The translations under genes were made by a program, and so were the position numbers. 64,000 nt of DNA from Candidatus Electrothrix communis (lineage in GTDB: Bacteria > Desulfobacterota > Desulfobulbia > Desulfobulbales > Desulfobulbaceae). Of this stretch, positions 3,831-61,207 are shown piece by piece. Every line of letters begins with the position of its first letter. Position 1 is the stretch's first letter. The notes below the pieces were generated by a model, which saw nothing but the letters and a program-made list of their open reading frames with translations, did not search any database and was not told where the DNA came from. The DNA is taken from assembly GCA_030644725.1 (NCBI GenBank), contig CP130629.1:2643501-2707500 (forward strand), given 5' to 3'.

Positions 3831-4805
3831 TCACATCACAAGAAAAAAATATAACAGAGCAACAAAAGCAATGGAAAAAGCTCGAAAGCTCTGACTGAAC
3901 ACAATCAGTTGCAGGGCTAGGCGCGGTTTAAAAATACCGGCATAATAAGGAAACTGATGACGGACAGCCCGAATCGGGGAAGAAAGAACATTGCCAACCA
4001 GCAGGGTCAGGACGATCTCCTTATATGTCATGGTTCCGTCCTGAAGCAGAGCCCCGGCCGCAACCAGACCGGCACTGAATTCAGCCGCTATCTGAAGGGC
4101 AATAATAGAGACCGCCTTGGGTGAAAGCCATGCTAACCAAGTCAGGTGGTCAGCCATGAACTCTTCCAGCAGTTGGAACATACCTGCCTCGGAAAGCCAA
4201 AAAAATACAATGTAAATGGGGAAGGTCAAACGGATAATCTTGCGAATGCGCTTTTTAAAGCGTGCAACAGTCCGCTTTCCGGCCTGGCGAAAGCTGACGC
4301 TCTCGGCTTCCTGCTGCCCATGCGTTTCGGCCAGATTCTCCGGCCCTAGAAGAAAATGGCTCAACACCGCAATCCCCAAGGTGCGGAGCAATGCCGCCCC
4401 CAGAGTCAGGCCGATATAAATAAACGTTGCCCCTTTTATCAAAGGAAGGGTCAAAAAAAAAGTGGTGGGTAGATGGAGAAAATAGGCTGGCAGACTGTTG
4501 AACATATTGGCTAGAAACAGCTCTTTTTTACAGAGTCGGCCTTGTTCGTAGGCCTCTGATAGCATCGTATTGGCCGCAACACCGGAGAAAAAAGCCATAG
4601 AAAAAGCAGCTCCAGTCAGATCGGAAAGATGGCCGAATCGAATCATCGGTGCGGCCACCACCGACATCTTTCTTGTCCAGTTCATAGCTTCTATGAAACC
4701 GGCAACAATTAAACCGATCGAGATGAAAGTAAGCAGTCGAACCAGAGGGTGGCCCAACTCCCGCCAAAGGAGCGCCAGGGTGTCAATCAGAGCAGCAACA
4801 ACCAT
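3831..4805 (-). CDS. Nucleoside-recognition (Gate) domain membrane protein
   Basis: A 324-residue integral membrane protein with about eight hydrophobic segments. It resembles the nucleoside-recognition/Gate-domain family (SpmA/SpmB, YjiH-like), with paired segments such as TGAAFSMAFFSGVAANTML and the second-half counterpart LLVGNVLSSPIRAVRHQFPY. The family is thought to act in transport or in the inner membrane, but the substrate is not known. It is a single gene, 223 bp away from the lipoprotein and separated from sppA by 58 bp. Confidence 0.75.
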   Translation of the reverse strand: MVVAALIDTLALLWRELGHPLVRLLTFISIGLIVAGFIEAMNWTRKMSVVAAPMIRFGHLSDLTGAAFSMAFFSGVAANTMLSEAYEQGRLCKKELFLANMFNSLPAYFLHLPTTFFLTLPLIKGATFIYIGLTLGAALLRTLGIAVLSHFLLGPENLAETHGQQEAESVSFRQAGKRTVARFKKRIRKIIRLTFPIYIVFFWLSEAGMFQLLEEFMADHLTWLAWLSPKAVSIIALQIAAEFSAGLVAAGALLQDGTMTYKEIVLTLLVGNVLSSPIRAVRHQFPYYAGIFKPRLALQLIVFSQSFRAFSIAFVALLYFFLVM

Positions 4806-4863
4806 TTTTCATCCATTATTACAGGAAAAACAATAACAACTAACTTTTAAACCTTCCGGTTTT

Positions 4864-6732
4864 CTACTGAACAGAGAAAGGAAGCAAACAATGACTGTAC
4901 ATATTGCGGGGATCTCCTGTCGGCAGAAAAGAGTACTGGCTCCCGGTCAGATTCCTTATTAATCGCGTCGCGGAAGCAGTGAAAATAACTGTCTCTGCCC
5001 CACCGATCATGGCCCCTTCCAAACGCTGGAGCAGGAGTTCTGCCGGATTTTTCTCTCCCTGAAAATAATAGGTCTGATCAGCTGGTAACCTGGCCAATTT
5101 CGCAGCTGCAGCAACCGCATCCTCCAAATTACCCAGCTCATCCACGAGGCCGAGTTGCAGGGCAGTTGCTCCGTCCCAAACTCTTCCTTGGGCAATCTTC
5201 TCCACCTCTGCTGGTTCCATCCCTCTTCCATTGGCAACGATCTGAATGAACTGTTGATAGCCGCGTTCAATATTCAGCTGAACAGCTACACGAAAATCCT
5301 CCGACATCGGTCGGGTCAGACTCCCTTGACCGGCCATTTTTGTTGTTCCGACGCCGTCATTAAACACCCCGATCTCGGCTAATGATTTTTCAAGAGTCGG
5401 GAAGGCTCCGAAGATACCGATGGAGCCAGTTATGGTATTTGATGAGGCATAAATTTTATCTGCATCTGCGGCAAGCCAGTATGCTCCAGATGCTGCCATT
5501 GACCCCATAGAAACCACAACAGGCTTACCCGCTTTCTGCAATTGCAAAACTTCCTGACGAATCAGCTCCGAGGCAAAGGCGCTCCCCCCACCGCTGTCAA
5601 TACGGAGCACAACAGCCTTGACCTTCTTCTCCTGTCGCGCCTTGCGCAAAAGCTTGGTCAGGCCACCCGACCCGATCTGTCCCATCTCCGCATCACCGTA
5701 AACGATATCCCCCTGAGCAATAATCAGGGCAACACGCCCCTCTTTCGTCCCCGGTGCTTGATAGGCAGGTGCCTGATATGCTGGTCTGCGAGTCTCGAGG
5801 TAGTCGGTAAAACCAACCCGTTTAAACCCAGTTTTCTTTTTATTTCTCCCCACCAAGGAAATTAGGTGCTCTCGAAATTCAGTTCGTGTTTTTATCCCAT
5901 CGACCAGGCCGAGATTTATGGCCATCTGTGCCGTATTCCCCTCCGCCTCTTGCAAATTCTCCGGCAGATGCTCAACAGCATCGGTAAGATCCCGCAACGA
6001 GAGTCCCCGTTGCTTGGCGATATCATCGCAAAACTGTTGCCAAATTTGGGTCAACCATTGCAGATTGGCCTCCTTGGCCTCGGATGACATGTCATTGCGA
6101 AAAAAAGGTTCCAAAGCGGATTTAAAGGTTCCCACCCTGAAGATATGAAAGCTTATTTTCAGCTTATCCAACAGTTCTCGCATGTACAGGCGAAAGACCC
6201 CGAACCCATGCAAGTCCACCTCTCCCATAGGGTTGAGATAGATTTCATCACCTCGGGCAGCAAGATAGTACTGCCCCTGACTAAGAGAGTCGGCATAGGA
6301 GATGACCTTCTTGCCGCTCTTCTTAAACGCATCAATCTCCCTACCGATATCCTGCAATTGATTCAGTCCAGCCTGTTTAAGATTATCTGGAACCAACACA
6401 AGCATTTTAATACGCTTATCATTGGCTGCAGCCCGAATCCCGCTGATAATATCCTGAAGAAGGAATTCTTCCTGCTGCAGAGTACCATTCAAAATATGGA
6501 GGAGATGTGTTGCCGGATCCAAGGGCGATTTCTTTTCCAAAATATTGCCATGCGGGGCCAAGACCAAGGCGGAACCATTTTCAATCTCGACCTCGGGCTG
6601 CTGAGCAAAGAGGAGGAGAACCATCCCGAAGCCAGCAAGAAAAAGAATTGTACTGATAAGCGCTGTTCCTGTTATCAGCACCTTCCAGCCAAAACGGATA
6701 ACCGAGCCGATGCATCGTAATATTTTCTTCAA
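4864..6732 (-). CDS. sppA: Signal peptide peptidase SppA, 67 kDa type
   Basis: Inner-membrane serine protease that degrades cleaved signal peptides. Two tandem SppA/ClpP-fold halves are present. The first has VGTFKSALEPF containing the catalytic Lys; the second has VVSMGSMAASGAYW containing the catalytic Ser and the ITGSIGIFG loop. The N-terminus has one transmembrane segment (VLITGTALISTILFLAGFG). The open frame extends to an ATG at 6867, but the extra 45 residues are Cys/His-rich and unlike SppA. A TTG at 6732 gives LKKILRC and a 622-residue protein, matching the 618 residues of the E. coli enzyme, so it is preferred. The start therefore carries some uncertainty; the identity does not. Confidence 0.93.
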   Translation of the reverse strand: MKKILRCIGSVIRFGWKVLITGTALISTILFLAGFGMVLLLFAQQPEVEIENGSALVLAPHGNILEKKSPLDPATHLLHILNGTLQQEEFLLQDIISGIRAAANDKRIKMLVLVPDNLKQAGLNQLQDIGREIDAFKKSGKKVISYADSLSQGQYYLAARGDEIYLNPMGEVDLHGFGVFRLYMRELLDKLKISFHIFRVGTFKSALEPFFRNDMSSEAKEANLQWLTQIWQQFCDDIAKQRGLSLRDLTDAVEHLPENLQEAEGNTAQMAINLGLVDGIKTRTEFREHLISLVGRNKKKTGFKRVGFTDYLETRRPAYQAPAYQAPGTKEGRVALIIAQGDIVYGDAEMGQIGSGGLTKLLRKARQEKKVKAVVLRIDSGGGSAFASELIRQEVLQLQKAGKPVVVSMGSMAASGAYWLAADADKIYASSNTITGSIGIFGAFPTLEKSLAEIGVFNDGVGTTKMAGQGSLTRPMSEDFRVAVQLNIERGYQQFIQIVANGRGMEPAEVEKIAQGRVWDGATALQLGLVDELGNLEDAVAAAAKLARLPADQTYYFQGEKNPAELLLQRLEGAMIGGAETVIFTASATRLIRNLTGSQYSFLPTGDPRNMYSHCLLPFSVQ

Positions 6733-7038
6733 GATATTTACTTCACAATGAGGTTGCAGGGTGAACGACTCGGAGAGAAGAGCCGATAGGCAGCACCAGG
6801 ATACGTGATGTTTCAGCTTATTGCAAGTGGAACAAGGGGACTGGACAGGAAGGAAACGGGATAGCATTGTCCCTCGTTGACATGGACAACGATTATCGGG
6901 CTCTCTCTATAAACCCTCATCCCGGCCCGTCGGGCCGGGACAACAAACGATAAAAACAGTGGACAGTTGAACGAGCAAACTACCTTTTTCATGCAAATAA
7001 AATTAATGTCAAAAAAGCAGGCAGGGGTTGAGAGAAAA

Positions 7039-7410
7039 TTACAGCTGAGAGGTCAACACTTCACAGGTACGGCAGATCTCCATTTTCTCCTTTCCTTCCT
7101 GCCCAGAAGTACAGGTACATAAGGTACCGTTAAGAAACCAACAGAGATGTCCGGCCTGAAACTCCCAAGCAGGGCATTCTTTCTTGCAATCACATTTTTT
7201 CAATGTCCAGCAATCTTTTCTCCTTCCGGTCCCATTTCTTCTTCGATTCACCAATAAAAAGTACACCTTTCTTTCAATATGCAGAGGAACACTTCGCCAA
7301 CCCTGTTCATAGCTTTGAACGGCCTTTATAGAGACGCCGAGAAGTCCAGCTAACGACTTTTGCGTTTTGCCGAGCTTCTTTCGATAATAAGAAAATTCGT
7401 TAGAGGTCAT
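7039..7410 (-). CDS. XRE-type HTH protein with Cys-rich 'two-CW' tail
   Basis: About 123 residues. The N-terminal half is a Cro/CI-type helix-turn-helix (YYRKKLGKTQKSLAGLLGVS followed by KAVQSYEQGWR). The C-terminal half carries paired Cys-Trp motifs (CWTLKKCDCKKECPAW and HLCWFLNGTLCTC), a pattern seen in small deltaproteobacterial proteins and suggestive of metal or Fe-S binding. A longer frame reaches 7461, but the ATG at 7410 (MTSNEFSYYRKK) starts where the HTH begins and is preferred. It stands alone, divergent from dgkA. A DNA-binding, possibly redox- or metal-sensing regulator is an inference; no target is visible. Confidence 0.65.
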   Translation of the reverse strand: MTSNEFSYYRKKLGKTQKSLAGLLGVSIKAVQSYEQGWRSVPLHIERKVYFLLVNRRRNGTGRRKDCWTLKKCDCKKECPAWEFQAGHLCWFLNGTLCTCTSGQEGKEKMEICRTCEVLTSQL

Positions 7411-7755
7411 GAAAGTCTGACAGGTTAAATTAACGTGATAATTATACGAGGATAATACCACATCGTAACTGTTCCCACAACCCCTTTTTCACCCTTCAAC
7501 CCTAAAAGAACCTTTCTCAAGACACCTCTTGTTACATGGCAAGCCTTGTCAATTTCGGCTATATTAATCGGCAATCAACATCAGCCCGCTTACACTGCAA
7601 CGCTCCGGGCATGACATCTTACGACATCTGCTCATTACAGCAACTCTAACATAGAGTAAAATTACTTGCAGCTTTTGCAGAGCTGATACCCGCCTCCAGA
7701 GTGGACGGGGACGGCAATGATCGAAAAATATTTCTTCAAAGGAAGGAGCCAACAC
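7411..7755. other. Divergent intergenic region between the HTH gene and dgkA
   Basis: Contains the upstream regions of both divergent genes. A strong ribosome binding site (GGAAGGAG) lies just before the dgkA start. No RNA gene or clear operator was recognised. Confidence 0.4.
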
Positions 7756-8121
7756 ATGGCAACGAAACAAAACGGCAAGGGGCTCAAAAGAATACTCAAA
7801 GCGTATACCTGCTCCATACAAGGCCTAAAGGCCGCCTTGCGTCACGAAGCAGCCTTTTTTCAGGAGCTACTCCTCGCTATTATTATGCTACCTATAGGGC
7901 TCTGGGCAGGCAATAACAGTACAGAACGCGCAATACTGACAGGCTGCCTTTTCCTTATTTTGATAATAGAACTCCTCAACTCCGCTCTTGAAGCAGTTGT
8001 TGATCGCATCGGCCTGGAGCATCATGAGTTATCAGGCCGAGCAAAAGATCTGGGATCAGCAGCTGTTTTTCTTGCCCTTCTTAACGGAGCAGTTGTCTGG
8101 CTCCTGATACTGTGCGGGTAA
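7756..8121 (+). CDS. dgkA: Diacylglycerol kinase (prokaryotic DgkA)
   Basis: Small inner-membrane kinase that phosphorylates diacylglycerol to phosphatidate, recycling lipid after phosphoglycerol transfer. The 121-residue protein has three hydrophobic helices and the family signature ELLNSALEAVVDRIG followed by HHELSGRAKDLGSAAV, close to the E. coli enzyme. The frame is open from 7717, but the ATG at 7756 follows a GGAAGGAG site at the right spacing and gives the usual length. The gene is monocistronic; the next gene is convergent. Confidence 0.96.
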   Translation: MATKQNGKGLKRILKAYTCSIQGLKAALRHEAAFFQELLLAIIMLPIGLWAGNNSTERAILTGCLFLILIIELLNSALEAVVDRIGLEHHELSGRAKDLGSAAVFLALLNGAVVWLLILCG

Positions 8122-8143
8122 AACCGGAACGAGGGGCAAAAAA

Positions 8144-8440
8144 CTACAGAGTCAAAACTGAGTTACTCTCTCCATGCTCATTCGCCACATACTCATCCGC
8201 GTCCGGGTCATTCACCCATATATTACCATCAAGCACGTAACGAAATGTATACGAACAACCGGCCTCCAGGGAGATTGTCACCGAGAAGCTCCCATCCTTC
8301 AGCCTCTTCATCGGAGTGTCGGTTGTCGACCAACTATTAAACTCCCCAGCCAACATTGCTGAACCGGCATGTTCCTGATTGGGACATTTAAAGGTCACCC
8401 TGCATTTCTTCTTCGTTTTTGTATAGTTTTTTATCAACAT
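8144..8440 (-). CDS. CBM48/isoamylase-N-like small protein
   Basis: A 98-residue protein consisting almost entirely of an early-set (AMPK-type glycogen-binding, CBM48-like) domain: FNSWSTTDTPMKRLKDGSF, then GCSYTFRYVLDGNIWVNDP, the typical order of these beta-sandwich modules. No catalytic domain is attached. The ATG at 8440 is preceded by AAAAGGGGAGAG, so it is preferred over the upstream start of the longer frame at 8530. A role in glycan sensing or as a subunit of a glycogen-related complex is inferred; no partner is adjacent. Confidence 0.85.
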   Translation of the reverse strand: MLIKNYTKTKKKCRVTFKCPNQEHAGSAMLAGEFNSWSTTDTPMKRLKDGSFSVTISLEAGCSYTFRYVLDGNIWVNDPDADEYVANEHGESNSVLTL

Positions 8441-8602
8441 CTGCTCTCCCCTTTTAACAGAACATAAAATAACTTGGCACTCGGTAGGCAACCGTAACCC
8501 TACCGAAGCCTTACTGGTCCCCCTTCTCAAGGTAACATAAATAATATAAAATGCCCTATTCCCTCTTCACTTACAATAAAAAAACAGCGCAGGAGCAGCT
8601 TC

Positions 8603-9889
8603 ATGACAGCAAACACGATTGACAGAGAAACCACCCTGAAAATCCCGGAACTGCTCGCCCCGGCAGGCAATATGGAAAAACTCATCACAGCCATCCATTA
8701 CGGGGCAGATGCAGTCTACCTGGGTGGCAGCAACTACAGTCTGCGTGCCGGTGCTGGCAATTTTAACAATCAAGAAATCAGCAAAGCAGTTACCTACGCC
8801 CATGAACGCGAGGTAAAAGTCTATATTACTCTTAATATATTCGCCCATAACCAAGATCTCAAACAATTCACCGAGCATCTCCGCAGCCTCCAGGACACAA
8901 GAGCGGACGGCCTTATCGTTGCTGACCCTGGCATCTTACTCCTCTGCAAAGAAACCATCCCAGACATGCCCGTCCATCTTTCCACCCAGGCCAATGTAAC
9001 CAATAGCCACAGTGCACGTTTCTGGGCATCTCAAGGAGTGCGACGACTCAACCTTGCTCGCGAGCTGAGCCTCCAGGAAATTCGCGAAATCAGGCAAAGC
9101 ACTGACACCGAATTGGAAGTCTTTGTCCACGGCGCTCTCTGCATCTCCTATTCCGGACGCTGCATGCTCTCAAACTACCTGACCGGACGCGATGCCAACC
9201 AAGGGAGTTGCGCTCACCCATGCCGCTATTCCTATGCCCTTGTCGAGGAAAAGAGGCCTGGAGTTTATTTCCCAGTAGAAGAAGATGAACGAGGGACCTA
9301 TATCTTTAACTCCCGGGATCTCTGCCTGCTGGGACGCCTCCCCGAATTAATCGCTGTTGGAGTGGATACGATTAAGATTGAAGGAAGAATGAAATCCATG
9401 TGCTATGTGGGTGCAGCTGTTCGAGTCTACCGAGCCGCTCTTGACTTTATCCAGGAGGAGATTAATCAGGGCACGGAGGCAGCGCAGATCGTCCTCCCTA
9501 AATCTTTTAAAAATGAAATGAGCAAGATAGGGACAAGAGGGCAAACAGAAAACTTTTTTAATGAATCTCCTTCATCAGACGCCATGCTTTATGATACAAT
9601 ACGAATAAATCAGCAGTACAGCCCGGTCGGCATTGTGCGTTCGAGCACACCGCTCCTGATTGAAGCCCGCAATGTGCTGACAATAGGAGACAGAATTGAA
9701 TATCTGGGCCGCGAACTCGAACCGATTACCTGTACAGCAGTTGCCATGACAACAGTGGATGGCGAGCCCAAGGAACGGGCGAATCCGGGAAATAGAATTA
9801 TCCTGACTACCTCTCCTGCACTGGAGACCCCGGAAATAAACGCCGTTCTGCGCAAGAGGCTTGACGAAAAAAATCCTATAACCAAATAG
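8603..9889 (+). CDS. Peptidase U32-family protein (TrhP/YegQ-like)
   Basis: A 428-residue U32-family protein. Family members act in tRNA hydroxylation (TrhP), ubiquinone hydroxylation (UbiU/UbiV) or collagenase-like roles. The N-terminus PELLAPAGNMEKLITAIHYG, the central FVHGALCISYSGRC with CAHPCRY (Cys residues that can ligate a 4Fe-4S cluster in this family) and KIEGRMKS are all present. The length and motif order best fit the TrhP group, which makes 5-hydroxyuridine at the tRNA wobble position. It is followed after 15 bp by a U32-like partner gene. Confidence 0.92.
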   Translation: MTANTIDRETTLKIPELLAPAGNMEKLITAIHYGADAVYLGGSNYSLRAGAGNFNNQEISKAVTYAHEREVKVYITLNIFAHNQDLKQFTEHLRSLQDTRADGLIVADPGILLLCKETIPDMPVHLSTQANVTNSHSARFWASQGVRRLNLARELSLQEIREIRQSTDTELEVFVHGALCISYSGRCMLSNYLTGRDANQGSCAHPCRYSYALVEEKRPGVYFPVEEDERGTYIFNSRDLCLLGRLPELIAVGVDTIKIEGRMKSMCYVGAAVRVYRAALDFIQEEINQGTEAAQIVLPKSFKNEMSKIGTRGQTENFFNESPSSDAMLYDTIRINQQYSPVGIVRSSTPLLIEARNVLTIGDRIEYLGRELEPITCTAVAMTTVDGEPKERANPGNRIILTTSPALETPEINAVLRKRLDEKNPITK

Positions 9890-9904
9890 AATATAAAGAG
9901 AACC

Positions 9905-10972
9905 ATGACACCTTTCCTTGATGTCCCTTTTCTTCCAGAAGAAGCCTATATAACGTTTATCAACAGCAACAGCGACCATATAGACTCTGTCCACTTCAGC
10001 CTCATGGGCGCTAAAAGGCTGGATAACCGGGTTAATCCCCAATCAATCGATAATCTTGACACAATCATTGGGATGGTGGAACAAGTCAAGGTAAAGAATA
10101 AATACCTCCTGCTCAACAGCATCTTTTACGGCCCTGATCTGCTGACAAAAAATGAATACCTGGGCCACCTCATTGACTGCCTTGATAAATGCGCGAATGC
10201 GGGCGTGGTCAAAGGTATCATTTACTGCGACCAATTCCTGCTCCAATCGCTGTCTATTGAGGCCCCTGAACTGGCCAAATCCCTGGAAGCCATTCCCGGC
10301 ACCAACACCATGCTCGACTCTCAGGCAAAGATCAGTTCTCATCTCAACTACATAGGCGAGACAAACTTCCAATTACCAAGCAAACTCACACTGGACCGCT
10401 CGCTTAATCGAAATTTTGAAAAGCTGACAGATACAGTCAATTGGTGTCGTGAAGGATATCCGGAGATCAAGATAGAGCTGCTGGCCAACGAAGGTTGCCT
10501 GCCTTTTTGTCCGTACAGGAATTCCCATGACGCCTATATCGCCCTGGGTAACCACGAAGGAGACGACAACAGTTCTCAAATTAATAATAAATTCGGTTGT
10601 CGGCAGCTGCTAGACAAACAGCCGTATCGCCTCCTTCAGTCTCCGTTTATCCGTCCAGAGGATGTTGACTCCTATCTCGGCCAGACGGATCTCATCCTCC
10701 TCTCCGGCAGAGCCCAAGGCCTTGACTTCCTCAAAAAAACTATTTCCGCCTACATAGCGAAAAGCCACGAAGGCAATCTGTTAGAGCTGCTTGACTCCAT
10801 GAACTGGTTAGGCGATCAGCTCTATATTGAGAATTCAGCCCTCTCCTTTGACTTTGCCAATATGCTCTCAGTTTGCGATAACCGCTGTAACTCCTGCGGA
10901 TTCTGTATGGAGCTCTTCAAAGCTATTGCTCGGCCACTGAACCAGAAGAAAACGGAAGCAGAGGCAATATAA
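9905..10972 (+). CDS. U32-like companion protein with C-terminal Cys cluster
   Basis: A 355-residue protein 15 bp downstream of the U32 gene and probably cotranscribed with it. It looks like a divergent U32-type barrel: it has ELLANEGCLPFCPYRNSHD, resembling the 'CLPGCPYR' element of U32-like proteins, and a predicted alternating alpha/beta pattern. The C-terminus carries a tight Cys cluster (CDNRCNSCGFC), which could bind an Fe-S centre. The function is unknown. It is followed by a strong terminator. A role in tRNA or lipid hydroxylation alongside its neighbour is only a guess from context. Confidence 0.75.
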   Translation: MTPFLDVPFLPEEAYITFINSNSDHIDSVHFSLMGAKRLDNRVNPQSIDNLDTIIGMVEQVKVKNKYLLLNSIFYGPDLLTKNEYLGHLIDCLDKCANAGVVKGIIYCDQFLLQSLSIEAPELAKSLEAIPGTNTMLDSQAKISSHLNYIGETNFQLPSKLTLDRSLNRNFEKLTDTVNWCREGYPEIKIELLANEGCLPFCPYRNSHDAYIALGNHEGDDNSSQINNKFGCRQLLDKQPYRLLQSPFIRPEDVDSYLGQTDLILLSGRAQGLDFLKKTISAYIAKSHEGNLLELLDSMNWLGDQLYIENSALSFDFANMLSVCDNRCNSCGFCMELFKAIARPLNQKKTEAEAI

Positions 10973-51135: not shown

Positions 51136-51139
51136 GTCA

Positions 51140-51980
51140 ATCAATAGGGTCAGACACGATTGTTTTTTTGACGATATTCCTCTGATTTTCTATCGCCGCC
51201 TTTCTGCTTAGGAGTCATTTGACGATTGATCCTTATTTCTATCTTTTCCTTAAAATAAGCATTTCCCAGTACCCATGCTTTATTGGTCGCCTCCCGAATT
51301 TCTTTAAGTGAAGTCTCATCCAGTTGCTGATCAAAGAAGGATCTGTACATTTCCCTTCGTTTCTCCGGGGTCTCTGCCAAGGCCTGATAAAGAGGGTGGG
51401 GAGTAACCATATTATCATGTTTTCCCAAAGCATTCATGCGATAACTGGACCAAAGATACTCGGCGGGGTGATTGACCATCTCTGCCCGTACCGGATTCAT
51501 TTCTATATAGCGATAACAGGTGAGGGCATATTGTTCGCTGTCGATGAGCGTCGCTTTATAGCGGCCTTCCCATAATGTCCCTTGTGCGCTGATAGGTGTG
51601 ATTGAAATATTGCACATAATAGCGACCGATCATCTGCATGGTTTTAGAGATGCCATCCTTTTCATGGGGTGTGATCAGGAGATGAACATGGTTGGTCATC
51701 AGGACATAGGCATGGACATCGCAGGTGTGTTTTTCGCAGGCTGCCTGTAATTTTTCCAGATAAAACCGGTAATCTTCATCGGCGGAGAATATCGGTTCCC
51801 GGTTGTTTCCGCGTATAATCACATGCTGGGGGTGGCCGACTCAAACGAAACGAGGCATAGCGGGTCCTGTTGGAGAGAGATTTGCAGGGCAATGTGTTCT
51901 CTTATATAGACAAGGGGATGACTATACTCCTATTACAATTGATTATTTTGACAAAATCAATCGAGTCTGACCCTATTGAT
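51140..51980 (-). mobile_element. REP-RAYT element, copy 1
   Basis: 841 bp with a 25-bp near-palindrome (REP) at each end in opposite orientation: 51140-51164 (starts ATCAATAGGGTCAGAC) and 51956-51980 (starts ATCAATCGAGTCTGAC). It encloses a REP-associated tyrosine transposase that is decayed. Copy 2 at 54389-55238 is almost identical in sequence. Confidence 0.85.
51150..51858 (-). pseudogene. REP-associated tyrosine transposase (RAYT), decayed copy
   Basis: A Y1-type HUH transposase: THVHLLITPHEKDGISKTMQ-like region carrying the HUH His pair (VHLL preceded by MTNH), then YRYIEMNPVRAEMVNHPAEY near the C-terminal half. One extra A in CGCACAAGGGACA around 51575-51590 shifts the frame. This copy also has a stop at codon 6 (TGA) and lacks 9 bp near its start compared with copy 2. 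The stop codon lies inside the terminal REP. Confidence 0.8.
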
Positions 51981-52017
51981 TCAGATGATTAGCATGACCA
52001 ACCCCGTCTTCATGGAT

Positions 52018-53694: not shown

Positions 53695-54388
53695 ATGCTT
53701 AACTCATCCCCGAGAGCAAATTGTACAATATGTGTTCCTTTTGACAAAGCAGGGTCTGTATATCAGGCGGAATACCCACAGGGCTATCGTCGCCAACTTG
53801 ATGACATCATAAAAAAATCCCGAACTTTTCCCTCCTGACATCAAAAACGGATATCGGATGAAAGACGGTTATGTCTCAAAAAAGCTCAACATCAAAATAC
53901 GACGAATACAAATAGCAGGGCGAAGCTATACTGTGCGTCCGTCATTCGTAATGCCTTACATGACCGCTTTTACTGATGATGCCGAAAAAGCACTATTTCT
54001 GAGTAAATTCTATGTTCCCGCATGGGGAATTGCTCGTATTTTTGGCAAAAACGGTCCGTATTGGTATCGTATGGCCAGCAGTCTCGGACGGTTCAGTCTT
54101 GTCGGAACAACCGTTAGAGATCCCAGAAAATTGCCTTTGCATATAGCCGCCGACGAAAAACACACGAAAATTCGAGGTGAAAAGTGTTATATCCCGACAA
54201 CTGTCGGCTGCGGATGCATTCTCGGCGCGGCAGTCGCTGAAAATGCAGGTAACGTCGATTTACTCCGTGGATACGATGTTTTCAGACGGGAGGCCTTGGA
54301 CTTAGATCCCTCTTATTCGCCTGAGACGGTCAATATCGACGGTTGGGCTGCCACACGAAATGCGTTCCGTCACCTTTTTCCGACAATA
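53695..54388 (+). pseudogene. Truncated, frameshifted transposase
   Basis: ATG 53695 starts MLNSSPRANCTICVPFDKAG; the frame ends at 53840 after an A7 run at about 53809-53815. With one A fewer it continues as NPELFPPDIKNGYRMKDGYV and on into the open frame at 53858. Likely catalytic Asp residues are in HIAADEKHTKIRGEK and NIDGWAATRNAFRHLF. The gene is cut at 54389 by insertion of RAYT copy 2, and its 3' part is not found on the other side. The family was not identified. Confidence 0.65.
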
Positions 54389-55238
54389 ATCAATAGGGTC
54401 AGACTCGATTGATTTTTTGACGATATTCCTCTGATTTTCTATCGCCGCCTTTCTGCTTGGGAGTCATTTGACGATTGATCCTTACTTCTATCTTTTCCTT
54501 AAAATAAGCACTTCCCAGCACCCATGCTTTGTTGGTCGCCTCCCGAATTTCTTTGAGTGAAGTCCCATCCAGTTGCTGATCAAATAAGGCTCTGTACATT
54601 TCTCTCCGTTTCTCCGAGGTCTCTGCCAAGGCCTGATAAAAAGGGTGGGGAGTAACCATATTATCATGTTTTCCCAAAGCATTCATGCGATAACTGGACC
54701 AAGGGTACTCGGCGGGGTGATTGACCATCTCTGCCCGTACCGGATTCATTTCTATATAGCGATAACAGGTGAGGGCATATTGTTCGCTGTCGATGAGCGT
54801 CGCTTTATAGCGGCCTTCCCATAATGTCCCTTGTGCGCTGATAGGTGTGATTGAAATATTGCACATAATAGCGACCGATCATCTGCATGGTTTTAGAGAT
54901 GCCATCCTTTTCATGGGGTGTGATCAGGAGATGAACATGGTTGGTCATCAGGACATAGGCATGGACATCGCAGGTGTGTTTTTCGCAGGCTGCCTGTAAT
55001 TTTTCCAGATAAAACCGGTAATCTTCATCGGCGGAGAATATCGGTTCCCGGTTGTTTCCGCGTATAATCACATGCTGGGGGTGGTCGACTAAAACGAAAC
55101 GAGGATGGCGAGGCATAGCGGGTCCTGTTGGAGAGAGATTTGCAGGACAATGTATTCTGTTATGGAGACAAGGGGATGGCTCTGCTCCTATTATAATTGA
55201 TTATATTAACAAAATAAATCGAGTCTGACCCTATTGAT
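54389..55238 (-). mobile_element. REP-RAYT element, copy 2
   Basis: 850 bp ended by the same REP palindromes: 54389-54413 (ATCAATAGGGTCAGAC start; perfect except one mispair and a G.T) and 55214-55238. It has interrupted the transposase gene on its left. It contains a longer version of the RAYT gene than copy 1. Confidence 0.85.
54399..55116 (-). pseudogene. REP-associated tyrosine transposase (RAYT), frameshifted
   Basis: ATG 55116 begins MPRHPRFVLVDHPQHVIIRG, the normal RAYT start; THVHLLITP-type HUH region is present as MTNHVHLLITPHEKDG. At the point where relatives read TYQRTGTLWEGRYK, the same extra A as in copy 1 shifts the frame, so the gene appears as two overlapping frames (54805-55116 and 54399-54866). 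Either a +1-type programmed frameshift or a shared mutation explains it. The stop TGA lies inside the terminal REP. Confidence 0.8.
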
Positions 55239-55269
55239 TTGTTGGCTCAATGGCTCAACGTACTGACCC

Positions 55270-56244
55270 TTATATCCATTTCTTTCGCTTGAACAGCCAA
55301 ACCTGCCCGATTGCGACGATCAGCAACAAGACGCAGAAAATGGCGAAGGCCCAGTGGTTCTCTGTGCCAGGAATGCCGCCGACGTTGATGCCTAGTAGCC
55401 CGGTTAGAAGGCCAAGTGGCAGAAAGATCCCCGCAACGATTGATAATATGTACATCGTCTTGTTCATTTGCTCCGCTAGGCGACCATTGAGTTCTTCCTG
55501 CATTACGGTTGCCCGATCCCGAATAGCATCAAGATCTTCAACATAGCGCGTTGTGCGGTCTGCGATTTCCCTTAGACGCATGCGTTCCATCTCGTTGAGC
55601 CAATCAACCTTCTCGTTGTATAAACGAACCATTACGTCACGCTGCGGCGCCAGATAACGGCGCATGGAGATAGCAACCCGGCGAATATTCGCAATCTTCT
55701 GGCGAAGCTCATAGGTCTGCTCAGCGATCACTTCGTCTTCGAGTGCATCAACGGAATCGTCAACGTCGGAGATAACACCACCCATTCGCAGTACAAGACG
55801 ATCGGCCAGATCCTCCAAAAATCCGCCAGAACTCACTGGGCCATTTCCCGCCTCAACAGCCTGACAAAGATCGTTTATCGCCATCAAACGACGGTGCCGT
55901 AACGTCACTATGCGATCTGAATCGATCCAGAAGCGGATGGATACCATATCCTCCGGATCCATACCCGGATTGAGATTCACACCGCGCAGAATCACCAGCA
56001 TGCCACCCTTGTGCACGAAGCTCCTCGGACGTGTTTCTTCTGTCGTCAATGCCTCAACTATGACAGGTTCAATCCCGCTATTGTTTTGCAGCCACTCTCG
56101 CGCCGCACTTCCGGTGTAGTCCAGGTGAACCCAGAGAGGTCCGTCCTCTGGACGCCACTTTTTGACACCGTCCAGTTCCAGTTGACTGCCGCCTCCGCTT
56201 CCGTCCAGTGCGAAGGCAAAGATAAGTCCGCTGTTGTCGTTCAT
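55270..56244 (-). CDS. ZntB/CorA-family metal ion transporter
   Basis: A 324-residue CorA-superfamily protein: cytoplasmic N-terminal alpha/beta region, long helices, and two C-terminal membrane segments (ILSIVAGIFLPLGLLTGLLG and FAIFCVLLLIVAIGQVWLF). The loop after the first segment is GINVGGIPGTEN rather than the GMN of CorA, matching ZntB-type zinc exporters/importers. The gene lies 31 bp beyond the right REP of RAYT copy 2. The metal is likely Zn2+, but related channels vary. Confidence 0.92.
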   Translation of the reverse strand: MNDNSGLIFAFALDGSGGGSQLELDGVKKWRPEDGPLWVHLDYTGSAAREWLQNNSGIEPVIVEALTTEETRPRSFVHKGGMLVILRGVNLNPGMDPEDMVSIRFWIDSDRIVTLRHRRLMAINDLCQAVEAGNGPVSSGGFLEDLADRLVLRMGGVISDVDDSVDALEDEVIAEQTYELRQKIANIRRVAISMRRYLAPQRDVMVRLYNEKVDWLNEMERMRLREIADRTTRYVEDLDAIRDRATVMQEELNGRLAEQMNKTMYILSIVAGIFLPLGLLTGLLGINVGGIPGTENHWAFAIFCVLLLIVAIGQVWLFKRKKWI

Positions 56245-56421: not shown

Positions 56422-56473
56422 GATAGGATGGACCGCTGAAAGTGAGCTTGCGAGCGGAGCGGTCCATCCTATC
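56422..56473. repeat. Long perfect hairpin
   Basis: A perfect 16-bp inverted repeat (GATAGGATGGACCGCT / AGCGGTCCATCCTATC) with a 20-nt loop that itself contains short complementary bases. It lies upstream of the ZntB gene in a 408-bp stretch without genes. It is unlike a standard terminator because no T-run follows. Confidence 0.7.
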
Positions 56474-56526
56474 AGTATTAATAAGTGGAAATTTGTCCTG
56501 CTATTGACCGTAATAGGTACCGCAGA

Positions 56527-56551
56527 ATCAATAGGGTCAGACTCGATTGAT
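56527..56551. repeat. Solo REP palindrome
   Basis: Identical over 25 bp to the left REP of RAYT copy 2 (54389-54413). It has no RAYT gene beside it; it is an isolated REP, and the fifth of this type in the window. Confidence 0.8.
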
Positions 56552-56589
56552 TTCTATTGATTTCTGCGTGATATTTTTTTTAAAATTAC

Positions 56590-56634
56590 TCTCACCGTAC
56601 GGCAGTTTCATATTGTTTTTATTTAATATTAATG
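56590..56634. repeat. 45-bp direct repeat, left copy
   Basis: Runs from TCTCACCGTACGGCAG to ATTAATG and matches 58399-58443 at 41 of 45 positions. The two copies bracket the two-gene module 56639-58392. The core CCGTACGG is a palindrome. Confidence 0.8.
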
Positions 56635-56638
56635 ATTA

Positions 56639-57965
56639 TCAAGTTGAAAAGCCTATTTGGTATGGAATTTCATCAGGTTCCGCATATTCAATACAATGAT
56701 TATTTGCCAATAACGACGTAATGGTCTGTTGACTGACATCAAAGTATTCCGCCGCATCGTCAACAGCTTCATCGGAGAAATCATTTTGCAAAAGTCAACC
56801 AACCCATTAATGGGACATAAAAATTCAGCGGCAAACGCTCTCTGATACTTTTGTCTGGCTGTACCCAGGTCTGTATTCGTGAGCCAGCGATCCATACCGC
56901 TATAAAAAAAATCACCTATATAACGAGACAACTCAAATCGCTTACTCATAGGATGCTTTTTACGAGGTACAAATTTTATATGACGGCTGCTGGTCGGTAT
57001 TCCCACGGATACACTGACTCGTCCATCCGGCTCCCATTTATCCGCATCGCATGATGCGACACCCAACAAATCGAAAAGATCATTCGTTTTGACTGGTCCG
57101 TTTTCATTACAAATTTCTTTTCTTATCCGGTGAGCGTCTTCCACAGCCAACCTCCATGGAGCCGAATGTCCTTCGGCTCGCTTCTCGTCCGCCGCCGTCG
57201 AAAATGTCGGTTTTCCTAAAACGCCCGTCGCATGCATAAAATGCTCGATCGGTTGAAGAGGTTTTCCTCGGGCGTTTTTTCCATAAATCGGGGCTAATTC
57301 CGACAAGGTCTCTTCACCATAATCCCGGCGCAATTGGAGAGCATAATGCATTGCCTCCGAGGAGCATTCATCAGGATCAAAACCCATAAGAGCTTCCAGT
57401 TTTCTGTAAATGAAAGATTCTTCTTCCTGCTGCTCATCCATAATTATCTTGAAAAGCTCTGAGAGGTCAGAACCCGGCACTCCGACCGCATCCAACCTAT
57501 TGGCTATGGTCGATATAAAATCAACAAGAACGTTTTGAAATTCAGAAACAGAAATGGAAATCGGAGAGGTTACCCCATTAAGGTATCTGACGGACTGCCG
57601 ACATTGCGTATCTGAAGGCGATGCCCATATTTGAATATTCTCGCTGTCGCTTGCGAAGAGTAACTTCGGCCAGACAAAACCATGATTAGCCGCTCCCAAT
57701 TCGTGAGCCATACGCCAGTGCGTCGTAAGTTTTCCACGGGGCGGTAAAGGCTCGTAAAGGAGCCTCCACCAGGACTGTAAAATCCATAACGCCAAGGGAT
57801 AAGTTGAGACAACAATGCTCTCCTGGATAGATTGAGACCAGATGTTTTCGTTTTTGTCAGATTGAAATCTTCGACATATACTTCAAGCTGCGCCATTGTG
57901 TTACTCAATTCAGGTTCTCCGGCTCCCGGATTCAACCATTTTTGGCGAAACTCAAATTTTTTCAT
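56639..57965 (-). pseudogene. ImmA/IrrE-like protein with two frameshifts
   Basis: The pieces join to a protein of about 440 residues. The first piece starts MKKFEFRQKWLNPGAGEPEL; after an A5 run at about 57853 the frame changes to NIWSQSIQESIVVSTYPLAL and on through the long central frame; near 56790 another A-run shift is needed to continue as NDFSDEAVDDAAEYFDVSQQ and to stop at 56639. The C-terminal part (ARQKYQRAFAAEFLCPINGL) resembles ImmA/IrrE (DUF955)-type proteins, but the HExxH zinc motif is not seen (the equivalent reads FELSRYIGD). Both breaks add up to missing A residues, so sequencing error is possible. It lies after a small partner gene (57952-58392) with 14 bp overlap. Confidence 0.6.
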
Positions 57966-58392
57966 AACGTGCCTTCCATTCCTTGATTACTTCATGCGAA
58001 AACGGATCTGATTCCGGCATCGGATAGCCATGATACACTCCCATCGCAGAATTTTCCAACTGAGCCTCCAAAGGCTCGCCCGCATCAGTGACCGCCCATA
58101 TATTCTGAGGCCATTTCCCCTTCATTTGACAGCTCATCATACCTTTTTTTAATCCATCCCGGAGATAGCCGACAGCAACTTTCTTGGAAAATATCTGAAC
58201 AGCATCGCAAAGGGACTTAGCTGGCCTTGGTGCCGATGGCGGGGTTAAAGCAAAATCACCGGGATTCTTCTTATGTTCTGGATTACCACCATATTGTACT
58301 TTTTCAACCAAAGAGTCGTACAGTCCCATATTATCGTCAGTGCGAGACTGAATTTTCCTTTTTGTGTTAAACCGATCAGGTCTTCGTCGCAT
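57952..58392 (-). CDS. Small partner protein of the ImmA-like gene
   Basis: About 146 residues from ATG 58392, or 125 from the internal ATG at 58329 (MGLYDSLVEKVQYG). A conserved-looking core is KVAVGYLRDGLKKGMMSC and PQNIWAVTDAGEPLEAQLEN, then GVYHGYPMPESDPF. It overlaps the ImmA-like gene by 14 bp. The pair looks like a two-gene module of toxin-antitoxin or defence type, but no known family could be named. The right flanking repeat begins 7 bp upstream of the longer start. Confidence 0.65.
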   Translation of the reverse strand: MRRRPDRFNTKRKIQSRTDDNMGLYDSLVEKVQYGGNPEHKKNPGDFALTPPSAPRPAKSLCDAVQIFSKKVAVGYLRDGLKKGMMSCQMKGKWPQNIWAVTDAGEPLEAQLENSAMGVYHGYPMPESDPFSHEVIKEWKARYEKI

Positions 58393-58398
58393 AGCTTA

Positions 58399-58443
58399 TC
58401 TCGCCGTACGGCAGTTTCATATTGTTTTTCTTGAAGATTAATG
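58399..58443. repeat. 45-bp direct repeat, right copy
   Basis: Partner of 56590-56634; here the core is the perfect palindrome GCCGTACGGC. The position just upstream of the module's first gene, with its twin just after the last, is what an att-like or target-duplicated boundary would look like. Confidence 0.8.
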
Positions 58444-58531: not shown

Positions 58532-61207
58532 CTACATCCGCAACACCACATGCTCCATATCCGCATCTGACCGGTTATGACTGATACTGAAACCCAGCTT
58601 GGCCACCAGCCGAAGCATTTCATTATTATTACGGAGTATATCCCCTTCCATAGTCTGCAAGCCATGACTGCGGGCCGTATCAATGAGATGACGCATCAGC
58701 AGATGAGCAAGCCCCTGACGCTGCCATTTATCGGAAATAACAATGGCAAACTCGCAGCTTCTGCCGTCCGGGTTAATAATATAGCGGGCAACCCCGATCT
58801 GGGTTTCCTTGCCGTCCTGCTCCACCACCGCAATCAGGGCCATCTCCCGATTATAATCAATCTGGGTAAAGCTGGTCAACATCTGCGGACTGAGCTCTGC
58901 AAGGGATTGCATAAAACGGAAGTACTTAGACTGCTCGGAAAGATTCCGGACAAACTCCTGCTCAATCTCGGCATCCTCCGGCCGGATGGGACGAATCACC
59001 ATGTCGGTTCCATTGGGCAATTGCCGACTGGTCACCAGATGGGCTGGATAGGGATAGATGGCCATGTGACTGTAGCGATCAGCGGTCTGGGTATGATAAT
59101 CCACCACAATGCGGGCATCCACCGCAACAGCCCCCTTTTCATCCACAATCAGAGGATTGATGTCCAACTCCTTGACCAAGGGCAGCTCACAGGCAATCTC
59201 TGAAACCCGCAATAACACCTGTTCCAAAGATTCAATATCAACCTCGGGCATATGGCGAAAGGCACCGAGCAGCTTGGAGACTCTGGTGCGACTGATCAGA
59301 TCCCGGACCAACCGCCGGTTCAGCGGAGGCAGGGTCACGGCCCGATCACCCATCACTTCCACAGAGATACCACCCGCACCAAAGGTGATCACCGGGCCGA
59401 AGACCGGATCAGTAACAAGGCCGACCAATAATTCTCTTCCATTGGGTCGCTGGAGCATGGGCTCAATGGTCACACCATCAATCCGAGCCTCCGGGCGATT
59501 CTTCTTTACCTCGTTGAGCATCTCGTTATAGGCGCTGCGGGCTGCCTGGGCATTAGAGATCCCTAGCCGCACCCCGCCTGCGTCGGATTTATGGGTGATG
59601 TCCGGCGAGTTGATCTTCAGGGCAATGGGAAAACCGATGCTTTCCGCCTGGACCAGGGTCTCGTTGGGAGAGCGGACAATACTGGCACTGGCCGTGGGAA
59701 TACGAAAGGCATGGAGCACAGCCTTGGATTCCGCCTCACTGAGGATCTTGCGGCCTTCACCGAGCACACTCTCAATAATCAGACGCGCCCCTTCTACGTC
59801 TGGAGCCTTGTCCCGTGATATGGGACCCGGTGTTTCCAAAAGCAATTTCTGGTTACGACTGTAGTTAACCAGATAGGAAAAGGCATCCACTGCTGTTTCC
59901 GGGGTATTAAAGGTGGGGATGTCCGCCTCGCGCAAAATGCGACGACCTTCCGCCACCTGAATCTCGCCCATCCAGCAGGTCAACAGGGGTTTGCCACCGG
60001 TTTTTAGAGCAACCAAGGATTTCGCCACCCCGGCAGGATCAGTCATGGCCTGGGGTGTCAGCAGGACCAGTAACCCGTCTACACCGGGATCCTGCATGCA
60101 GATCTCTACGGCTTGGGTATAACGCTCCGGGGTTGCATCCCCGATAATATCCACCGGATTATTCTTGGACCAGGTAGGCGGCAGGATCTCGTCCAACTTA
60201 TTCATGGTCGCTTGGCTCAGATCGGCCAGGGGCAGATCCAGATCAGCCAGATGATCTGTGGCCATCACGCCAGGGCCGCCCCCGTTGGTAATGATCACCA
60301 GACGGTCGCCAGCTGCTTTAATGGGATAGGTCAGGGTACCGGCGGCTGAAAAGAGGTTGGCAATGCGCATACCGCGCACCACACCGGCCCGACGCAAGGC
60401 GCTGTCAAAGACATCGTCCGCTCCGACCAGAGCACCGGTATGCGACATAGCGGCCTTTGACCCGCTGGCATGGCGACCGACCTTGAGGGCGATAACCGGC
60501 TTGATTCGGGCTGCGGCCCGCAATCCGCTCATAAAGGAAAGCGCATCATGGATGCCTTCAATATACAGGAGGATGCTCTTGGTTTTCGGATCACTGACCA
60601 GATAATCGAGAATATCACCGAAATCAATATCAGCGGAGATCCCGGTGGAGACCACAGCGGAAAAGCCGATATCATTGGCTGCTGCCCAGTCCAGGATGGC
60701 CGTACACAGGGCGCCGGATTGAGACACCAGGGCAATACTTCCCTCATTGGCATTTCCCTTATTAAAGGTGCAATTGAGCCCGGTGCTCGGTCGCATCAGA
60801 CCTAAGCAGTTGGGCCCCATAACCCGCATGCCGTAGCGATGGGCGTTTTCCACCACGGCCCGTTCCAGCTTTAACCCCTGCGGACCGACTTCGCGAAAAC
60901 CTGCCGAAATGACCACGGCATCCTTGATACCGTACGTACCGCAGGCCTCGATGATGCCGGGTACGGTTGCTGCCGGGGTGGTGATGACCGCAAGATCAAC
61001 GGGTTTCCGGATGCTCTTGAGATCAGGAAAGGCCTTGCGTCCCTGTACCTTTTTATGCTTCGGATTAATCGGAAAAACATCGCCTTTAAAACCGCCTTCA
61101 ATCATATTCTTAAAGACCAGGCTACCCACCGCTCCCTCCCGGTCGCTGGCACCAAAAACGGCAACAGCGTCCGGCTCAAACAGTTTGTTCAGATAATGCT
61201 TACCCAT
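58532..61207 (-). CDS. ADP-forming acyl-CoA synthetase fused to GNAT (PatZ-like)
   Basis: An 891-residue protein combining CoA-binding, ligase-CoA and ATP-grasp parts of NDP-forming acetyl-CoA synthetase with a C-terminal GNAT acetyltransferase. The CoA-binding start is VAVFGASDREGAVGSLVFKN; the phosphohistidine-type motif is AAMSHTGALVGADDVF; the ATP-grasp half contains ALKINSPDITHKSDAGGVRL; the GNAT end has FAIVISDKWQRQGLAHLLMR. The intact His suggests true acyl-CoA ligase ability, unlike PatZ proteins that lost catalysis. The GNAT domain may acetylate acetyl-CoA synthetase or other proteins. Confidence 0.94.
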   Translation of the reverse strand: MGKHYLNKLFEPDAVAVFGASDREGAVGSLVFKNMIEGGFKGDVFPINPKHKKVQGRKAFPDLKSIRKPVDLAVITTPAATVPGIIEACGTYGIKDAVVISAGFREVGPQGLKLERAVVENAHRYGMRVMGPNCLGLMRPSTGLNCTFNKGNANEGSIALVSQSGALCTAILDWAAANDIGFSAVVSTGISADIDFGDILDYLVSDPKTKSILLYIEGIHDALSFMSGLRAAARIKPVIALKVGRHASGSKAAMSHTGALVGADDVFDSALRRAGVVRGMRIANLFSAAGTLTYPIKAAGDRLVIITNGGGPGVMATDHLADLDLPLADLSQATMNKLDEILPPTWSKNNPVDIIGDATPERYTQAVEICMQDPGVDGLLVLLTPQAMTDPAGVAKSLVALKTGGKPLLTCWMGEIQVAEGRRILREADIPTFNTPETAVDAFSYLVNYSRNQKLLLETPGPISRDKAPDVEGARLIIESVLGEGRKILSEAESKAVLHAFRIPTASASIVRSPNETLVQAESIGFPIALKINSPDITHKSDAGGVRLGISNAQAARSAYNEMLNEVKKNRPEARIDGVTIEPMLQRPNGRELLVGLVTDPVFGPVITFGAGGISVEVMGDRAVTLPPLNRRLVRDLISRTRVSKLLGAFRHMPEVDIESLEQVLLRVSEIACELPLVKELDINPLIVDEKGAVAVDARIVVDYHTQTADRYSHMAIYPYPAHLVTSRQLPNGTDMVIRPIRPEDAEIEQEFVRNLSEQSKYFRFMQSLAELSPQMLTSFTQIDYNREMALIAVVEQDGKETQIGVARYIINPDGRSCEFAIVISDKWQRQGLAHLLMRHLIDTARSHGLQTMEGDILRNNNEMLRLVAKLGFSISHNRSDADMEHVVLRM

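Follow-up and report, generated by a model that had tools for sequence, protein, structure and literature searches.

A conserved gene pair between direct repeats in Candidatus Electrothrix communis: a candidate toxin-antitoxin-like module probably inserted with duplication of its target

In a stretch of 64,000 nucleotides from Candidatus Electrothrix communis (contig CP130629.1, positions 2,643,501 to 2,707,500; the whole stretch is called the window below), we identified two adjoining genes, gene 1 and gene 2, that lie between 45-bp direct repeats, while two congeneric genomes (G003 and G004) have a single copy of the repeat, and no such genes, at the orthologous place. The simplest reading of these single-copy, module-free sites is that the pair is an insertion; on balance, we lean towards an undescribed two-gene toxin-antitoxin-like module, acting in addiction or abortive defence, that was inserted with duplication of its target. 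In some other bacteria, relatives of the pair lie between other duplicated pieces of DNA, a hint of a novel type of gene pair whose loss would be difficult for a cell. The core features are the following (all coordinates are positions within the window, and both genes are on the minus strand):

56590..56634, plus strand: left repeat copy, which includes the start codon of a leftover AAA-ATPase gene fragment
58399..58443, plus strand: right repeat copy, which duplicates the 5′ end of the AAA-ATPase gene and runs on into the flank common to the empty sites
57952..58392, minus strand: gene 1, an open frame of 146 aa, the proposed toxin
56639..57965, minus strand: gene 2, the proposed antitoxin or sensor, in three frames (open pieces 57570-57965 and 56653-57795, the last part in the third frame)

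The two repeats (56590-56634 and 58399-58443) are identical at 41 of 45 positions and flank the pair as tightly as the original prediction had stated: the right copy begins 7 bp upstream of gene 1 (with 6 bp between gene 1 and the duplicated gene start), the left copy lies about 5 bp from the gene 2 stop (in the frame of the intact homologues), and the coordinates also bear out the 14-bp overlap between gene 1 and the start of gene 2 (57965). The two-gene module is present between the repeats as predicted, with the reservation that gene 2 is not one open frame but is interrupted by two one-base slips. The 21-nt core of the repeat has no further occurrence in the window at up to 3 mismatches (0 are expected, and it is absent from shuffled sequences), and a 64-nt query against the 4.85-Mb genome found both repeat places, plus just two 15-nt matches (E ~0.9). 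The repeat spans positions -26 to +19 relative to the start of an AAA-ATPase_like/PDDEXK_9 gene, and its palindromic core, CCGTACGG, lies in that gene's codons for Leu-Pro-Tyr-Gly. The suggestion that this palindrome acts as a signal did not hold up: we rejected it as a recombination signal, since it is coding sequence of the duplicated gene start and no role was found for it. No recombinase is encoded between the two window repeats.

The site itself is defined by a flanking gene and by what is left of the interrupted one:

58532..61207, minus strand: flanking acyl-CoA synthetase/GNAT-like gene, 891 aa, which anchors the orthologous site
56564..56611, minus strand: remnant of the AAA-ATPase_like/PDDEXK_9 gene (about 16 first codons), the remainder lost; the orthologue is open in G003
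56526..56553, strand not assigned: near-palindrome of 28 bp, identical to one end of a nearby Y1-transposase element; the AAA-ATPase gene breaks off here

The 891-aa gene is present in 7 of the 8 genomes of the genus. Beside it, at the orthologous place, G003 and G004 each contain one repeat copy and no module, so that the empty site proposed as a check on the prediction was found in two congeners; neither of these genomes has a relative of gene 2, which is present in 2 of the 7 other congeners. The right copy matches the single copy at 41 of 45 positions in G003 (41 of 45 in G004, too), and the left copy at 39 of 45 positions in each. The 26-bp flank on the host side of the right copy matches G004 at 26/26 and G003 at 16/26 positions, that of the left copy matches the empty sites of G003 and G004 at 23/26 and 22/26 positions, and the module-side flanks match them at merely 6-10 of 26. 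The single copy in G003 forms the beginning of a 564-codon open gene with AAA-ATPase_like and PDDEXK_9 domains; the G004 orthologue appears to be split into two frames further downstream. Both window copies read CCG where both empty sites read CCA, which fits a duplication within the lineage of the window genome. The comparison with G003 and G004 shows both a single-copy empty site and a duplicated target, and insertion with duplication in the window genome's lineage is very probable; a precise deletion of the module in G003 and G004 instead would be possible on these data alone. The closest homologues, in the congeners G005 and G007, form an intact pair elsewhere in the genome (74% identical over query residues 1-337) with a common upstream region that is absent in the window; when an empty site was sought at this second locus, its left side aligned in G001 and G004 and its right side did not.

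A profile scan of sampled genome contigs yielded 182 relatives, the best 80 of which were kept and, together with five plasmid loci, make up a set of 85 loci. A gene 1 homologue lies directly upstream of gene 2 in 74 of them, mostly with overlapping ends, so the two small genes are conserved together as an operon in the manner of type II toxin-antitoxin systems; of the 11 loci without an upstream gene 1 match, 5 begin no more than 540 nt from the end of the locus. Across our sample, this conserved operon has a scattered distribution over eight phyla: the 49 rows of a tree carry eight phylum labels with 11 label changes against a minimum of 7, a count that, by the tool's own warning, is no proof of transfer. 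In a sample of the phylum, 8 of 395 genomes contain the module, the window's own included. Among plasmids, there are seven matching records, five of which cover most of the query (Massilia, Sphingomonas, Rhizobium, Allorhizobium, and Tistrella), and in one IMG/VR contig the pair has an IS110 transposase, a DUF2924 gene, and a serine recombinase nearby. No third gene was seen to recur next to the two, as no cluster of neighbours except gene 1 occurs in more than 7 loci (by a crude open reading frame caller, poor in high-GC DNA).

Searches of databases and literature returned little for this family. The window open reading frames (ORFs) of the pair match no Pfam family above the cut-off and no NCBIfam model, and PADLOC-DB 2.0.0 gave 0 families for the three window ORFs at E <= 1; an NCBIfam scan of the pair's relatives and a search of phage records for the pair likewise gave no result. 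The window piece of gene 2, used as a query against sampled genome contigs and viral contigs, found no match. Five PHROGs families came up (best E 0.009), each through at most 2 of 50 members, none of them convincing. We discarded the apolipoprotein rows of a PDB sequence-profile search, which look like an effect of helix composition; that search was otherwise without result. Among the open-licence PubMed Central (PMC) papers listed, for several searches the top-ranked ones, we found none on the gene family or on long target duplication around toxin-antitoxin pairs.

Enclosure by direct repeats recurs among the relatives. We scored 67 loci (the 85, minus L070, which is a near copy of L068, 11 without a gene 1 match, and 6 with less than 400 bp of flank) for direct repeats within 500 bp on both sides of the module, and found the module enclosed in nine, by repeats of 47-602 bp. 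Control intervals of the same size in the same loci are enclosed in 1 of 2017 cases if they may overlap (the L104 repeat family again) and in 0 of 310 if they may not (9/67 versus 0/310; Fisher 1e-7); a narrower scan with 300-bp flanks gave 4 of 69 loci versus 1 of 1392 control intervals. Similarly, 13 out of 23 repeat pairs with a spacing of 1.5-3.5 kb enclose the module, in 11 loci, so that these pairs are not independent. Repeats of different loci share no sequence similarity beyond chance words; being unrelated between insertions and variable in length (47-602 bp), they have the properties of long target duplications. Three of the clearest repeats are pieces of host genes: the L097 repeat corresponds to the 3′ part of a GGDEF gene, which is complete on one flank and fragmentary on the other (the L097 genome has two full-length copies of the repeat, all others being partial matches within a shared domain); the L126 repeat comes from the 3′ end of a gene for a PIN-domain toxin, itself preceded by a Phd/YefM-type antitoxin gene; and in L104, a piece of a glycosyltransferase gene occurs three times (at 4133-10060, the copies being 94-97% alike), with an acyltransferase gene in the first interval and the module in the second. 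The strictest set of loci (L071, L097, L104, and L126) gives 4/67 versus 0/310 (p ~0.001, calculated by hand).

The original prediction expected homologues to be flanked by the same repeats, and they are not: some loci have other, unrelated repeats and most, including those of G005 and G007, have none. The window repeat is therefore better read as a duplication made at the unit's insertion than as a recognition sequence. Under a looser rule (repeats of at least 40 bp within 1.5 kb), 4 of 27 RelE/ParE genes (from L153-L182) are enclosed, versus 0 of 26 GNAT genes, after 3 of 30 RelE/ParE loci and 2 of 28 GNAT loci were dropped for short flanks; repeat enclosure may hold for toxin genes in general.

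Relative to the intact 445-aa homologue of a congener, gene 2 lies in three frames, the two one-base slips each falling in a short homopolymer. Homopolymers are a usual place of long-read errors, and the slips may be real or errors of sequencing. A 1071-nt piece of gene 2 differs from that of the congener by a nonsynonymous rate (dN) of 0.15 and a synonymous rate (dS) of 1.14, and gene 1, which is 78% identical to the G005 homologue over 139 residues, has dN 0.13 and dS 0.81 against the same congener; the ratios (dN/dS ~0.14 and ~0.16, respectively) indicate that both genes were under purifying selection.

Structural comparisons used the predicted folds of the homologues at L068, an intact pair from a methanotroph (mean predicted local distance difference test, pLDDT, 92 for gene 2 and 81 for gene 1; gene 1 residues are numbered as in L068). 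Residues ~262-448 of gene 2 match CapP (Z 11.4) and IrrE (Z 10.1) over 153-171 residues, as well as PprI with single-stranded DNA (Z 9.7), and Foldseek gives probability 1.00 to three entries at E 0.006-0.03, none reaching 0.001. PF06114 (Peptidase_M78) matches 19 of 49 gene 2 members at E <= 0.1 (best 9e-6), and the Tistrella homologue surpasses the Pfam cut-off for this family. None of the 49 aligned relatives contains the HExxH zinc motif; in its place the alignment shows R-F-E-L-A-R, in which neither R varies. The C-terminal half of gene 2 is confidently predicted to be an IrrE/CapP-like domain that lost its zinc motif, and the ImmA/IrrE likeness noted earlier from sequence stands for the fold (Z 10.1-11.4) and fails for the motif (0/49). 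We set aside an active zinc peptidase, given the absence of the motif in 49/49. The N-terminal half (residues 2-155) is predicted to resemble the contact-dependent growth inhibition (CDI) immunity protein 5ffp, with a moderate score (Z 6.7); Whirly and Pur-alpha proteins score lower (~5).

Fifty gene 1 sequences share five invariant residues (Y32, K57, C60, D61, and W97), and five more are nearly so (H38, K39, E107, Y118, and H119). The best structural match of the gene 1 model is a chain of the CDI complex 5t87 (Z 4.7, root-mean-square deviation 2.7, 65 residues; a weak match), and 13 of the 27 listed rows are RelE, YoeB, HigB, or ParE, with Z of just 2.0-2.9; these scores are below the level that the comparison tool calls meaningful. 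The part of PMC9111745 that concerns PDB 5t87 gives it as a toxin-immunity complex, and from chain length and numbering we infer that the matched chain, 5t87_G, is the toxin and not the immunity chain. Taken together, sequence features and models suggest that the pair is probably toxin-antitoxin-like in nature; whether the models make gene 1 the toxin is an evenly balanced question, and the assignment of the two roles to gene 1 and gene 2 is likewise about even.

In the mechanism that we propose, the unit would have inserted at the 5′ end of the resident AAA-ATPase gene, by an insertion with long target duplication that needed no recombinase of its own, leaving a 45-bp piece of the gene on both sides. 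The product of gene 1 would be a small toxin, which may belong to the RelE/CDI-toxin fold class and so may be an RNase, and gene 2 would keep it inactive through the N-terminal half that resembles a CDI immunity protein. Rather than working as a protease, the C-terminal IrrE fold, with its zinc ligands gone, would serve for sensing or binding, perhaps of single-stranded DNA; PprI is reported to be a sensor of single-stranded DNA (PMC10904395), and gene 2 could have a similar role. The toxin may be freed when the module is lost, or by a trigger, for instance phage infection, and a cell in which recombination between the repeats removed the module would be poisoned. This would account for the persistence of copies that lie between direct repeats. 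We infer the toxicity, the identity of the toxin, the trigger, and the reason for the persistence of the repeats. The earlier description of the pair as a mobile or toxin-antitoxin-like module gains from the empty site and from the conserved, scattered pair with its toxin-antitoxin-like features, and loses from the homologues that lack the same repeats.

Several observations weigh against this proposal. No enclosing repeat was found in 58 of the 67 loci, nor around the closest homologues in G005 and G007. The L106 repeat proved to be a dispersed element, its genome containing 106 matches, which lowered our confidence (8/67 loci remain without it); the L140 and L146 repeats may be dispersed, too; and two further cases are doubtful, L136 having a run of N beside the repeat and the L143 copies being only 81% alike. 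In L104, the repeats that enclose the module also enclose an acyltransferase gene, which means that enclosure is not confined to toxins, and the RelE/ParE versus GNAT comparison is small and unmatched, drawn from one phylum and from best-scoring matches. On the protein side, the toxin-fold match of gene 1 is weak, Foldseek with the gene 1 model gives no match at E <= 0.001, and hhalign finds no similarity between the 50 gene 1 homologues and 30 RelE/ParE proteins (probability 0.07), and we set aside gene 1 as a RelE/ParE member by sequence; the match of gene 2 to the CDI immunity protein, at Z 6.7, falls under the tool's threshold of 8, below which a score may reflect a common arrangement. Lastly, in the window it is the proposed toxin that is open and the proposed antitoxin that has two frame slips; a live toxin would not allow a broken antitoxin, unless the toxin is silent or the slips are sequencing errors, and the window copy may be damaged.

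The neighbourhood of the module includes genes of defence type. Near the module, 107 ORFs gave matches to 96 PADLOC models at E <= 1e-10 (the number of models is not that of systems, since several models can match one protein), and the 25 models listed include BrxD, PglZ, PglX, PglW, JetD, NucC, OloB, SngB, and AriA; by comparison, 47 ORFs near GNAT genes (out of 50 in all) match 3 PADLOC models, all DrmC. The 107 ORFs are the 122 of 323 candidates selected by script, minus 16 (overlapping the pair, cut, or doubtful), plus one ORF of L129, which had been suspected to be PglZ and by itself yields at least 6 of the 96 models. On a closer look at 10 neighbours, 2 match PADLOC at E <= 1e-20. On the Massilia plasmid, dptG and dptH precede the pair. 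Three related cyanobacterial loci (L126, L127, and L129) have an ATPase gene and a PglZ-like gene next to the module (the PADLOC match to PglZ being shown for L129), and one of the three also has a vapBC-like pair.

Such neighbours, dptG and dptH on the Massilia plasmid among them, are what one would expect of a phage-defence pair without addiction, in which gene 2 senses infection and switches on gene 1 as the effector, the duplications being a trace of exchange that is not kept by killing. The C-terminal fold shared with CapP and PprI, regulators that respond to damage, and the many loci without repeats agree with this explanation; the far higher frequency of enclosing repeats around the module than around control intervals, and the similar rate around RelE/ParE genes, do not, and we consider it rather unlikely. 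A stronger competitor, to which we give a somewhat less than even chance, is that the window copy is a decaying passenger that no longer has a function in this genome, a pseudogene remnant irrespective of the family's role in other genomes. The two frame slips in gene 2, the truncated neighbour gene, the adjoining mobile palindrome, the mere 6 bp between gene 1 and the duplicated gene start, and the missing upstream region of G005 and G007 all point this way. Any such decay must be recent, however, given dN/dS of ~0.14-0.16 in both genes; moreover, gene 1 is open, and both slips are in homopolymers, where long-read errors usually fall.

Two other explanations concern the repeats themselves. 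Homologous recombination between paralogous AAA-ATPase genes might have brought in the module, the repeats then being two paralogous gene starts. The AAA-ATPase_like/PDDEXK_9 family (L040-L057) is indeed large, with 18 matches in the window's genome, five of them close and nearly full length, and the L041 start resembles the repeat, as does (by eye) its upstream sequence; but the 26 bp upstream differ by eye in the other 4 of the 5 close paralogues, and both repeat copies match the orthologous start (39/45 and 41/45) and share CCG where the empty sites have CCA. Recombination between paralogues was set aside as a first-choice explanation and appears very unlikely. Alternatively, a site-specific integrative element could have used the repeats as attachment sites, with a recombinase supplied in trans, as direct repeats at gene ends, the precise empty site, and the IMG/VR contig with a serine recombinase near the pair would allow. 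This is disfavoured and we find it barely credible, in view of repeats that are unrelated between loci and range from 47 to 602 bp, closest homologues without any, window repeats that enclose no recombinase, and neighbourhoods in which no third gene recurs. A site-specific integrative or transposable element was rejected as a class for the window on the same two grounds, differing repeats and no recombinase between them.

Insertion of a toxin-antitoxin-like unit with target duplication has parallels among known systems. Restriction-modification systems are described as inserting with long, variable target duplications on the order of 100 bp (in the pertinent parts of PMC3874152 and PMC3031569; Nobusato 2000 and Furuta 2010 as cited there), and, as far as these accounts go, our pair is similar in being a compact two-gene unit with no recombinase, a precise empty site, and a long, variable direct duplication of the target. 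Persistence of restriction-modification systems is there proposed to work via post-segregational killing, as we propose for the pair; unlike them, the pair contains no restriction or modification gene, consists of an IrrE-like domain protein and its partner, and has a putative killing activity. Toxin-antitoxin loci have been proposed, with exceptions, to counter large deletions (PMC2654758, in the portion citing Szekeres 2007). COG2856 (ImmA/IrrE) proteins beside RelE or PIN proteins were predicted to be toxin-antitoxin systems (Makarova 2009, PMC2701414, in the section on them); the pair resembles these in having an IrrE-fold protein in a tight operon with a possibly RelE-like small protein, a patchy spread, and carriage on plasmids, and, to the extent of that description, differs in the missing HExxH (49/49), the additional CdiI-like N-terminal half, and the lack of an Xre partner, as well as in a gene 1 without sequence similarity to RelE/ParE.

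The C-terminal fold of gene 2 is that of CapP of the cyclic-oligonucleotide-based antiphage signalling systems (CBASS) and of Deinococcus IrrE/PprI (Z 11.4, 10.1, and 9.7), from which gene 2 differs in lacking zinc ligands and in having a different partner gene; repressors like CapH or DdrO were not seen as recurrent neighbours when the genes around the loci were clustered. With CDI toxin/immunity pairs (5t87 and 5ffp), the resemblance lies in the match of gene 1 to one chain of a complex (Z 4.7) and of the N-terminal half of gene 2 to an immunity protein of another species (Z 6.7); the scores are low, the two entries come from different systems, and no delivery gene is recurrent beside the pair.

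If the reading of the pair as an inserted toxin-antitoxin-like module is right, the toxin-antitoxin or defence families would gain an uncatalogued member, present in eight of the phyla in our sample, with an antitoxin built on a protease fold that lacks the metal site. Long-target-duplication insertion, argued so far from restriction-modification systems in the sources above, would also extend to a protein pair, with control counts, and repeat enclosure would make an old idea testable in genomes, namely that addiction preserves the DNA between direct repeats. In its broadest form, the idea would be that a widespread toxin-antitoxin family, in which a zinc-less IrrE pseudoprotease fused to an immunity-like domain serves both as antitoxin and to sense foreign or single-stranded DNA, spreads as nothing more than the two genes, through insertion that needs no recombinase and duplicates neighbouring DNA, and that enclosure by unrelated direct repeats is a general fingerprint of addiction modules, since deleting cells die; we regard this as speculative and doubt that it will hold as a whole. 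If true, repeat enclosure could be used for the blind discovery of unknown addiction modules.

The sequence to the left of the module contains other features. An element of ~850 bp is present in two copies, at 51139-51981 and 54388-55240, both with 28-bp near-palindromic ends; the second copy carries a Y1/REP-associated transposase that is split into two frames, and an open copy of the Y1 transposase gene is found in G004 (L033, 9857-10573). The solo 28-bp end inside the broken AAA-ATPase gene (56526-56553) may reflect movement of a bare palindrome. A CorA-like gene beside the module (55270-56244) was found in 1 of the 8 genus genomes at E <= 1e-40, and a perfect 16-bp inverted repeat with a 20-nt loop (56422-56437 and 56458-56473) lies near the left repeat.

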